Shown: positions 49,257 to 52,905 of the stretch, one piece after another
How the letters are laid out: every line of letters starts with the position of its first letter
How positions within the stretch are numbered: position 1 is the stretch's first letter
Translations under genes and position numbers: made by a program
DNA from: Caulobacter sp.
Lineage (GTDB): Bacteria; Pseudomonadota; Alphaproteobacteria; Caulobacterales; Caulobacteraceae
DNA: 64,000 nt
Reading direction: 5' to 3'
NCBI GenBank assembly: GCA_021741355.1
Contig: JAIOXZ010000020.1
Location: forward strand, 1-64,000
Notes under the pieces: model-generated
The model's input: the letters and a program-made list of their open reading frames with translations, nothing else
What the model was told of the DNA's origin: nothing
The model's database searches: none

Positions 49257-49964
49257 TTACCGCCAACCCCTGGCCCTGGCCGCCGCCTCGGCTGCCGCGT
49301 CCATCGGTTCGCCCTGCATCAGCGCCTGGGCGGCCTCGAGGACCTCGGGCGGCGTTTCGCCGGCGGCGGTTCGATAGTCACCGCCTGGCCCCGCCGGACC
49401 CTGGGTCACGGCCATGCGCACGGTCCAACCGTCGCCCTCGCGACAGGCCAGCCCGGCAGGACCGGCGCCCCTGGTCACGGTGAAGGTGCGGCAGTAGCGC
49501 TGGTCCTGCGCGCGGAAGCTCAGGCCAACCTTGACCACCTCGCCCTCGCCCGGCGCGGACGCCAGTTGAGACTCCAGCGCCGACGCCAGCTGACCCCGCG
49601 CCCGCATCTCGCCGTCGACCATCGGCGCCGGTCCGCGCGGCAATGTGAGCCCGACCACGAGGCCCGCCGCGACTCCGGCTGCGATCGTTCCCCAACGCCC
49701 CCAGGCGGGCGTGATCCGGCGCTGACGGACAGAGTCCAGGCTGACCACCCGGCCCGCCTCGACGGCGGCCGTCAGTCGCTCGGGAACCGGTTCGTCGGCG
49801 ACATCCGCGAAGGCGGCCTTCACCGCCCCGGACAGCATCCGGTGCCGGGCAAGCCGTATGGCCAGAGCCTCGTCCCGCGCCGCCGCGGCCTCCACCGCCG
49901 CGACCTCCTCGGTCGGAAGTTCGCCGTCCAGGTAGGCGATGATCATCGCGTCGGTCACGGTCAT
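49257..49964 (-). CDS. Anti-sigma factor (transmembrane, no HxxxCxxC zinc motif)
   Basis: Starts MTVTDAMIIAYLDGELPTEEVAAVEAA; central TM GTIAAGVAAGLVVGLTL; 4-nt overlap with upstream ECF gene. Confidence 0.85.
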   Translation of the reverse strand: MTVTDAMIIAYLDGELPTEEVAAVEAAAARDEALAIRLARHRMLSGAVKAAFADVADEPVPERLTAAVEAGRVVSLDSVRQRRITPAWGRWGTIAAGVAAGLVVGLTLPRGPAPMVDGEMRARGQLASALESQLASAPGEGEVVKVGLSFRAQDQRYCRTFTVTRGAGPAGLACREGDGWTVRMAVTQGPAGPGGDYRTAAGETPPEVLEAAQALMQGEPMDAAAEAAARARGWR

Positions 49965-50461
49965 GAGTACGCCTCCTGTCCGGCGAGATCGGCCATCAGG
50001 GCCAGCCGACCCCTGACCAGACGGCTGTTCAGGGTTCCCGGCGGTATCTCAAGAACCTCCGCCGCTTCGGCGTAGGACAGCCCCTCGATCAGCACCAGCG
50101 CGACCGCGAGCCGCTGATCATCGGGTAGCCGCCCCATGGCCTGGCGGATGGCGATGGCCTCGACCCGCATGTCCTGTGACGCCACCGACGCGTCGGCCAC
50201 CCGCTCAAGCTGCTGGTCGTCGCCGACGACGAGCCGCTTGCGGCCTCGCGACCGTGCTTCGTCAATCCAGGCGTTCTTCATGATCTGCATCATCCAGCTG
50301 TCCAGTCGCGAGCCGGTGGTCCACTGGCCGCGCCGGCCGAGCGCCCGTTCGATCGTCAGCTGCACCAGATCGTCCGCGTCGGCCATATGACCGGCCAACG
50401 CCCGGGCGAACCGCCGAAGACGGGGGAGCAGGTCGACGATGTCCCGTTCGAACCGGTCCAG
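49961..50461 (-). CDS. ECF-family RNA polymerase sigma factor, likely CTG start at 50461
   Basis: (L)DRFERDIVDLLPRLRRFARALAGHMADADDLVQLTIERALGRRGQW...; PDDQRLAVALVLIEGLSYAEAAEVLEIPPGTLNSRLVRGR. First ATG at 50398 would remove part of sigma region 2. Confidence 0.85.
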   Translation of the reverse strand: MDRFERDIVDLLPRLRRFARALAGHMADADDLVQLTIERALGRRGQWTTGSRLDSWMMQIMKNAWIDEARSRGRKRLVVGDDQQLERVADASVASQDMRVEAIAIRQAMGRLPDDQRLAVALVLIEGLSYAEAAEVLEIPPGTLNSRLVRGRLALMADLAGQEAYS

Positions 50462-50477
50462 GGAATCACCTCTTCAG

Positions 50478-50509
50478 GGATGAAACGGTGGCCGTGGGTC
50501 GTTTCATCC
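50478..50509. promoter_or_regulatory. Candidate divergent ECF-dependent promoter pair embedded in a palindrome
   Basis: GGATGAAACG-GTGGCCGTGGGT-CGTTTCATCC; both strands read GGATGAAAC-N13-CGTTTC. Confidence 0.65.
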
Positions 50510-50558
50510 ACGGACTTCAGCCTAAAGTGCGCGACGCCGTCGTGGATGAGAGGACGCC

Positions 50559-51911
50559 ATGCGCGAACCTTCGAACAGACGCCGCCGGGACGCAATCGTC
50601 GCGATGATGATCGCGCTCGTGGCCGCACCGGCCGTGGCCCAGCTGCCGGCGACGGGAGGACTGCCGTCGCTGCCGGGAAACCTGCCGGGCGCGCCCGCCC
50701 TGCCTGGCGAGCTCTCGCTGCCCGACAGCGCCGCGGCCACGCGGGCGTTGCGCGGGATAATGGACTCGCGCCGTCTGCATCTGCGCGAACTGATCCGCCG
50801 GAACCGCGACCGGATCGATGTTGATGGCGATGGCGCGCCGGTGGTGCGGGGCGAGGTGCTGGCGATCGCGCCGTCCGTCGCATCCCTCGCGCGCGCGACA
50901 GCCGCGGGATTCGTAGTCCTGCGGGACGCCGCCATTGAAGGAACGGACGTCCGGCTGGTGACCCTGGCCATTCCCCGCGGGCTCGACGCCCGCCAGGCGA
51001 TCAGGCGGTTGCGCAAGGCCGACCCGGACGGCGCCTATGACTACAACCACATCTACTCGGCCTCGGGCGAGGTCGGCGCCGCGAGCGTTCCGGGCCGATC
51101 AGGGCCACGGACGGCGCCGTCCGGCGGGCGTGGCGGGCGGGTCGGTCTGGTCGACACGGGCGTCGACACCGGTCATCCGGCGCTGGCCGGCGCACGCATC
51201 GAACAACGGGGCTTCGCGCCCGGCGGCGTGAGGCCAGGAGTCCATGGCGCCGCCGTGGCGTCGTTGCTGGTCGGGCGCGCCGGTCCGTTTCGCGGGGCGG
51301 CGCCAGGCGCGACCCTGCTGGTGGCCGACATCTATGGTGATGGCCCGACGGGCGGATCGGCGGACGCTATTGTCCGCGCGCTAGGCTGGCTGGCGCAGTC
51401 GGATGTCCGGGTGATCAACGTCAGCCTGGTCGGCCCGCCGAACGCAGCCCTGCGCGCCGTGATCAGCAGCCTGACGGCACGTGGCGTGCTGATCGTGGCG
51501 GCGGTCGGCAATGACGGACCCGCCGCGCCGCCACTCTATCCGGCCTCCTACCCAGGCGTGATCGCGGTGACCGGCGTTGACGGCCGCGACCGGGTTCTGC
51601 CGGAGGCCGGACGGGCCTTGCATCTCGACTTCGCCGCGCCGGGCGCCGACATGGCGGCGGCCGGCCCGGGCGGGCGGTTCGTTACGGTGCGCGGCACTTC
51701 CTTCGCCGCTCCCATTGTCACCGGGCGACTGGCGATGTTGCGGACGGGCGACGGCGTGAGCGGCGCGCGCGCCGCTGTCGAGGCGCTGACGCGCGACGCC
51801 CGGGACCTCGGGCCCCGCGGGGCCGACAGGAGCTACGGCCGCGGCCTGGTCGGCCAGGACCTGCGAACCCCGCCACGGGCGGTCGGCGCGGCCGGCCCGA
51901 TTCTCCGCTAG
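50559..51911 (+). CDS. Secreted S8 (subtilisin-like) serine peptidase
   Basis: Signal peptide; catalytic D in GLVDTGVDTGHPAL, H in GVHGAAVASLL, S in VRGTSFAAPIVTG. Confidence 0.92.
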   Translation: MREPSNRRRRDAIVAMMIALVAAPAVAQLPATGGLPSLPGNLPGAPALPGELSLPDSAAATRALRGIMDSRRLHLRELIRRNRDRIDVDGDGAPVVRGEVLAIAPSVASLARATAAGFVVLRDAAIEGTDVRLVTLAIPRGLDARQAIRRLRKADPDGAYDYNHIYSASGEVGAASVPGRSGPRTAPSGGRGGRVGLVDTGVDTGHPALAGARIEQRGFAPGGVRPGVHGAAVASLLVGRAGPFRGAAPGATLLVADIYGDGPTGGSADAIVRALGWLAQSDVRVINVSLVGPPNAALRAVISSLTARGVLIVAAVGNDGPAAPPLYPASYPGVIAVTGVDGRDRVLPEAGRALHLDFAAPGADMAAAGPGGRFVTVRGTSFAAPIVTGRLAMLRTGDGVSGARAAVEALTRDARDLGPRGADRSYGRGLVGQDLRTPPRAVGAAGPILR

Positions 51912-51927
51912 AAAAATGCGCGCGGCC

Positions 51928-51956
51928 GGGATGAAACCCGGCGGGACGGACGTTTT
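51928..51956 (+). promoter_or_regulatory. Candidate ECF-dependent promoter, same motif and spacing as 50477-50505
   Basis: GGGATGAAAC-CCGGCGGGACGGA(13)-CGTTTT, 51 nt upstream of the 52007 ATG. Confidence 0.6.
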
Positions 51957-52006: not shown

Positions 52007-52660
52007 ATGAGCAAGACCAGATTCCTCTGCACCGCCGTCCTGTGCTGCGGCCTGATGGCCGGCCCGGCTTCGGCCCAGATTCTCGGCGGCGGAGCCGGCG
52101 GCAGCCTCGGCGGGGCGGTCGGCGGCGGCCTGGGCGGCGTGACCGGTTCCGCGACCGGGTCGGCGTCCGGCAGCGTCGATGTGACCCGTCCTGACACCAG
52201 CGGCGCGGTTTCGGCTGCCCGCAGCCGGGCTGAACGCGCCAAGGCGCGGGCCGCCGCCCGCGCCGCCGCAGCGAAGGACCGCGCCGCAGGCGTCGTCCGG
52301 CGCGCTAGCGACACTGCCGGCTCGGCCAGCGTCAGCGGTTCTGCGTCCGGATCGGCCTCTGGCCGTGGCGCGGCCTCCGGTTCGGCTTCCGGCGGCGCGT
52401 CAATGGGTGGCGCGAGCCTGGGCGCCTCGGGTTCAGGTGAAGCGGACGGCGGCTCCACGATCGCCGCCGGCCGTTCCACCGCCGCGGGCGCCGCAAGCCG
52501 CACCCGCGCCGCGGCAGCCGCCGCGCGCCGTGGAGCCGAAAGCGCCGCTTCCCGGACGCCGCAGGCCCGCGCTGAAGGCTCCGCCTCCACCTCCGGCTCG
52601 GCCGGCGCCTCGACCAGACAGCAGGACGCCGCCCGGCCGACCGACGACGACCGGCGCTAG
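52007..52660 (+). CDS. Secreted low-complexity Ala/Gly/Ser-rich protein
   Basis: Signal peptide MSKTRFLCTAVLCCGLMAGPASA then GGGAGGSLGGAVGGGLGGVTGSATGSASGS and repeated SGSASG/GAASGSASGG blocks. Confidence 0.75.
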   Translation: MSKTRFLCTAVLCCGLMAGPASAQILGGGAGGSLGGAVGGGLGGVTGSATGSASGSVDVTRPDTSGAVSAARSRAERAKARAAARAAAAKDRAAGVVRRASDTAGSASVSGSASGSASGRGAASGSASGGASMGGASLGASGSGEADGGSTIAAGRSTAAGAASRTRAAAAAARRGAESAASRTPQARAEGSASTSGSAGASTRQQDAARPTDDDRR

Positions 52661-52707: not shown

Positions 52708-52905
52708 ATGCAGCACTACATCATCCATATCGACGAAGCGGGCGGCGAAGAGCCGCTCGTGCTCTCCGTGATCGTCGCCACCGATGACCGGGTGCGCGAG
52801 GTCGCGCGCGACTGGTTGTCCCGATCGCCGGATCGCATCAGCGCCCGCATCTGGCGCGGTGAAGAAGCGCTGTTCGAGATCAGTCGCGACGACGCTTCGG
52901 GCTAG
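52708..52905 (+). CDS. Small hypothetical protein (65 aa)
   Basis: MQHYIIHIDEAGGEEPLVLSVIVATDDRVREVARDWLSRSPDRISARIWRGEEALFEISRDDASG; non-repetitive, downstream in same orientation. Confidence 0.55.
   Translation: MQHYIIHIDEAGGEEPLVLSVIVATDDRVREVARDWLSRSPDRISARIWRGEEALFEISRDDASG

Follow-up and report, generated by a model that had tools for sequence, protein, structure and literature searches.

In the 64-kb window (the whole stretch of Caulobacter DNA that was analysed), a gene for an ECF sigma factor of 166 amino acids (49961..50461, minus strand; Sigma70_r2 and r4_2 by Pfam) overlaps with its end the start of an anti-sigma factor gene (49257..49964, minus strand). Facing away from this pair are genes on the plus strand for a secreted pro-subtilisin (50559..51911) and a secreted low-complexity protein (52007..52660). 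The locus was compared with those of 80 named relatives from Alpha-, Beta- and Gammaproteobacteria and of 75 Caulobacter-genus genomes; the loci of relatives share descent, and counts across them are not independent. The sigma gene has no ATG, GTG or TTG near the homologous start. Its translation most likely begins, judging from the sequence, at CTG 50461 (minus strand), behind an AGAGGTG ribosome site; orthologs have TTG there, so that a weak type of start codon is kept at this gene.

The anti-sigma factor consists of an N-terminal helical sigma-binding region, a transmembrane helix at about residues 88-107 and a periplasmic beta domain. Its zf-HC2 match falls just below the cut-off, and its profile matches NepR/RseA chains weakly. 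An AlphaFold model (pLDDT 87) gave no significant match in a fold search. Cys158 and Cys174 are invariant in all 73 full-length relatives, and S. meliloti EcfR6 has the pair too. The two residues occupy facing positions on adjacent strands of the model, as judged from strand limits, which makes a disulfide between them plausible. No description of this invariant periplasmic cysteine pair was found in searchable papers.

The divergent gene encodes an S8 peptidase (PF00082, E=1e-28) with a signal peptide, a prodomain (about residues 94-165) and a catalytic domain (194-432). The catalytic Asp/His/Ser residues (D199, H229 and S381) and the oxyanion Asn (N318) are invariant in the alignment, as in a secreted S8 zymogen. 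In its model, a signal helix and a prodomain-like fold precede a disordered linker, which leads into the catalytic domain; the top matches in the PDB are pro-subtilisins, pro-subtilisin E among them. The third gene encodes a Gly/Ala/Ser-rich protein of 217 amino acids with a signal peptide and the mature N-terminus AQILGG. About 70 of the 80 relatives encode a protein of this type after the protease; these proteins share the mature start (A-x-A followed by Q-[LIV]-L-G-G) and are almost devoid of Cys and Trp. The protein matches no Pfam or NCBIfam family, a single sub-threshold DUF883 match in one relative aside, and searchable papers yielded no account of such a conserved third gene, for a secreted AQ-LLGG protein rich in Gly/Ala/Ser, with a site of its own. 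The Gly-rich gene is followed by a 65-aa ORF (MQHYIIHIDEAGG...; 52708-52905, plus strand), kept in only a few close Caulobacter relatives.

Probable promoter sites and their distribution

Read directly, positions 50477-50505 are GGGATGAAAC-GGTGGCCGTGGGT-CGTTTC and positions 51928-51956 are GGGATGAAAC-CCGGCGGGACGGA-CGTTTT. The first site contains a palindrome, GGATGAAACG-N12-CGTTTCATCC, of 32 bp at 50478-50509; its 10-bp arms are perfect, as the earlier note had stated, and its minus strand provides a third copy of the motif, facing the ECF gene. We annotate a putative protease-direction promoter at 50478..50503 (plus strand; -35 GGATGAAAC at 50478-50486, -10 CGTT at 50500-50503), a putative sigma-direction promoter at 50484..50509 (minus strand; -35 GGATGAAAC at 50509-50501, -10 CGTT at 50487-50484) and a putative unidirectional third-gene promoter at 51929..51954 (plus strand; again -35 GGATGAAAC and -10 CGTT). 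The distances of 59 and 56 nt to the two ATGs given earlier are correct when counting starts at the C of CGTT. An imperfect 15-nt inverted repeat (GTCGTTTCATCCACG at 50498-50512 and CGTGGATGAGAGGAC at 50541-50555) also lies across the protease leader region.

Three matches to GATGAAAC-N12-14-CGTTT lie in the 64-kb window, against 0.00 in shuffles. Across the 3.8-Mb genome, GATGAAAC-N10-18-CGTTT has only three perfect copies, all at this locus, and the reversed-pattern control gave 0. The earlier report of one motif before the subtilase, before the secreted protein and mirrored toward the ECF gene is thereby borne out, these being the only exact copies genome-wide. A relaxed motif had four genome matches, the fourth inside coding-type sequence. 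Allowing one and two mismatches raised the number of matches from the three exact ones to 38, against 12 in the control; a wider regulon was considered and rejected for this genome, as the mismatch matches do not single out a consistent group of genes for exported proteins at the distance of a promoter. There may be an extra weak target beyond the module in this genome.

Among the 75 genus genomes, in which the subtilase is present in 27, the exact motif has 25 matches, 21 of them inside the module (reversed control, 0). The four others (in G070, G072, G078 and G079 contig 300) are about as many as estimated from base composition. The match in G079 (L089; contig 300, 15720-15745), a close relative, precedes an ORF with an HExxHxxxxxH-like zinc-protease motif. 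This ORF, the only one of its kind among the four, is a plausible exported metallopeptidase, and its site is possibly an extra target or a chance match. The search of the whole genome and of relatives proposed in the earlier note thus finds the sites concentrated at the module locus.

Of the 78 best named relatives that have an ECF gene, 76 have it divergent from the protease gene, the context of a divergent serine protease being that of RpoE6-type members of ECF26. With no spacing preset, 65 of the 75 divergent regions have CGT exactly 22 nt from GGA, against 0.1 in shuffled ones. The same offset recurs downstream of the protease in 64/79 regions (shuffled, 0.1), so that the place and spacing of the third-gene promoter are kept as well. 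Orthologs with variant -35 elements (GGAAGAAAC, GGATTAAAC and GGATGGAAC) retain the 13-nt gap and CGTT in both divergent promoters, as do nearly all third-gene-facing promoters of the variant Caulobacter orthologs. Upstream of orthologous ECF/subtilase loci, where the earlier proposal would have it conserved, the motif is kept. Promoters of the GGAATAAA form occur in relatives L018/L047, L020 and L116. In L047, L049/L020 and L116, which are distant relatives using GGAATAAA promoters, the ECF gene is divergent and long Asp/Glu-rich repeats precede the S8 protease.

The 13-nt spacer had been called short and unusual, a figure that arose because AAAC was counted into the -35. With the -35 beginning at GGAT, its start lies 22 nt from CGTT in this species, and the register is that of ordinary ECF promoters, GGATG taking the position of their GGAAC/GGAATA. 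The -35 of this species, GGATGAAA, is a variant of the GGAATA type. Across the module the pattern is GGAWNRAA-N14-CGTT with offset 22, in agreement with the ECF26 promoter (-35 GGAATA, -10 GT, ECF spacing). The register differs by 1 nt from that of the mapped S. meliloti SMa0142 promoter, GGGAATAGACCGACGACTCAGCCGTTCT, in which GGAATA lies 21 nt before CGTT (PMC6180224).

Classification of the sigma factor

The earlier note could not match the module to a named system; we match it to ECF26, whose characterised member S. meliloti RpoE6 has a divergent serine protease, SMa0142 (PMC6180224). The module sigma factor has regions 2 and 4 only, and its nearest kin are ECF26 members. A profile of module sigma factors, with RpoE6 itself among its rows, ranks RpoE6 best of the eight S. 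meliloti ECFs (217.7 bits), followed by S. meliloti ECFs beside matching anti-sigma genes and an EcfG-like sigma factor, these labels being putative. In a tree, RpoE6 and Shinella adjoin the module clade with moderate support. The adjacent membrane anti-sigma factor has, by model and profile, the periplasmic C-terminal domain of ECF26 partners, and the module anti-sigma profile (EcfR6 among its rows) recovers three further S. meliloti anti-sigmas (2e-11 to 1e-6).

The divergent arrangement of rpoE6 and a serine protease gene is kept widely within ECF26 (PMC6180224), and the S. meliloti locus, whose trio lies on the pSymA plasmid, has the S8, ECF and anti-sigma genes in the same order. We therefore class the module as a variant of ECF26 rather than a new system, namely its RpoE6-type branch, a placement made by comparison with the S. 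meliloti ECFs and by the tree. The same layout, as a variant of this known sigma-factor group, recurs across many Proteobacteria by sequence comparison.

Geometry of the palindrome

In Alphaproteobacteria each arm of the palindrome provides one promoter with its -35 and overlaps the opposite -10. The resulting 31-bp pair geometry, absent from shuffles, is found in 43 of the 75 divergent loci and is common to 43 of about 47 alphaproteobacterial loci. The element has the character of a bidirectional promoter, one DNA element with overlapping promoter information on both strands. In 14 Burkholderiales loci the promoters share a -35 palindrome (GGATTTTCTTCC/GGAAGAAAATCC) with a first-base distance of 11, and L046 also differs in pair geometry, the offset of 22 within each promoter being kept. 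In gammaproteobacterial relatives the promoters are separate, or the sigma-direction one alone is recognisable. At the divergent site two opposing promoters require both arms. A second arm is present in 0/64 downstream one-way sites; this is the informative figure, as its counterpart, both arms in 40/40 divergent sites, holds by construction, the sites having been chosen for geometry. Because the offset inside each promoter is constant and the distance between promoters varies, we read the element as two promoters rather than one operator. In the papers that could be searched, no description of an overlapping -35/-10 palindrome for an ECF factor was found, and those returned for the motif string were unrelated; novelty is provisional.

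Discussion

We conclude with considerable confidence, from sequence comparison, that the three sites are the promoters of the adjacent RpoE6-type ECF26 sigma factor, which would drive its own operon, the pro-subtilisin and the Gly/Ala/Ser-rich protein. The self-contained regulon of the earlier note (own operon, exported protease and exported low-complexity protein) is supported comparatively, the sites being kept at orthologous loci and near-absent elsewhere in the genome. In S. meliloti, RpoE6 overexpression raises SMa0142, whose mapped start lies behind GGGAATA-N-CGTTCT (PMC6180224). The promoter of RpoE6's own operon there has no match to the ECF26 motif (PMC6180224), which counts against our conclusion.

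In the mechanism that we propose, the anti-sigma factor, which spans the membrane, would sequester the sigma factor for as long as its own periplasmic domain receives no envelope signal. The freed sigma factor would then transcribe its own operon, the divergent pro-subtilisin gene and the gene for the Gly/Ala/Ser-rich protein, and probably little else, all three promoters presumably depending on it. As each arm of the 32-bp palindrome contains one -35 and overlaps the opposite -10, the element, holding both promoters, would have room for one polymerase at a time, so that transcription of sigma/anti-sigma and that of the protease would share the element and compete for it. What is known of ECF factors in general suggests release from the anti-sigma factor and autoactivation, as well as steric exclusion between two polymerases at the element. 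The protease and the Gly-rich protein may act together at the cell surface; that the former processes the latter is a guess from linkage.

The overlap may merely follow from the short intergenic region, exclusion having no regulatory role, and this has close to an even chance of being right. It agrees with the gammaproteobacterial relatives, which manage with separate promoters and thereby indicate that mutual exclusion is not essential to the system; against it stand two overlapping layouts, each kept in its own lineage (31 bp in Alphaproteobacteria, 11 bp in Burkholderiales). Another possibility, rather doubtful but worth stating, is a direction switch: each activation would choose between sigma/anti-sigma and protease, exclusion would have been kept by way of the two overlaps, and the protease and the AQ-LLGG Gly-rich protein would form an undescribed exported pair under the switch.

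It is improbable that another ECF, such as the general stress sigma factor EcfG, is the main user of the sites. EcfG promoters also carry GGAAC about 22 nt before CGTT, and RpoE6 and RpoE2 targets overlap in S. meliloti (PMC6180224); however, the EcfG regulon is large, whereas the site hardly occurs outside the module locus, where it always accompanies the module ECF, and its -35 is GGATGAAA or GGAAGAAA, not GGAAC. Although operators commonly take the form of inverted repeats between divergent genes, and the repeat here has perfect 10-bp arms, we give very little credence to an operator for a dimeric repressor or activator, given the non-palindromic third site and its one-armed counterparts, the change of pair geometry in Burkholderiales and L046 at constant offset, the agreement of the motif with mapped ECF26 promoters (PMC6180224) and a conserved block holding no other regulator gene.

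With its sites read as promoters of its own sigma factor, the locus would offer a compact instance of a symmetrical promoter through which a sigma factor drives its own synthesis together with its main output. Caulobacterales and Sphingomonadales have this promoter in conserved form, Burkholderiales in a re-arranged one. The locus also links an exported Gly/Ala/Ser-rich protein, widespread and uncharacterised, to a specific protease and regulator, and the invariant cysteine pair is a candidate sensing or structural element of the RpoE6-type branch of ECF26.

Among known systems, B. subtilis SigW is likewise autoregulated from a promoter of the AAC...CGT type and has an anti-sigma partner; TGAAAC of its promoter is 3 nt out of register with the -35 here. 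S. meliloti RpoE1 and RpoE4, which respond to sulfite, belong to the same ECF group and share the anti-sigma type and GGAATA-type promoters, but have other neighbours and targets (sulfite oxidation) and no subtilase (PMC3511301). Closest is S. meliloti RpoE6-EcfR6/SMa0142, in which an operon of ECF and membrane anti-sigma factor is also divergent from an S8 protease gene, the protease is a target of the sigma factor, and GGGAATA...CGTTCT stands in nearly the same register (PMC6180224). Its anti-sigma factor likewise carries the Cys pair. That system differs in lacking a palindromic shared promoter and in its larger reported target set (PMC6180224), and no Gly/Ala/Ser-rich third gene of the module type was seen downstream in the S. 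meliloti locus. E. coli sigma-70 bidirectional promoters, as described in PMC12825309 (Warman 2021 cited there), are also single pseudo-symmetrical elements from which polymerase proceeds both ways, one binding excluding the other. Their symmetry resides in a shared -10, whereas in the module palindrome each -35 overlaps the -10 of the opposite promoter. Unlike in the E. coli case, the sigma factor predicted to read the element is here one of its own products.
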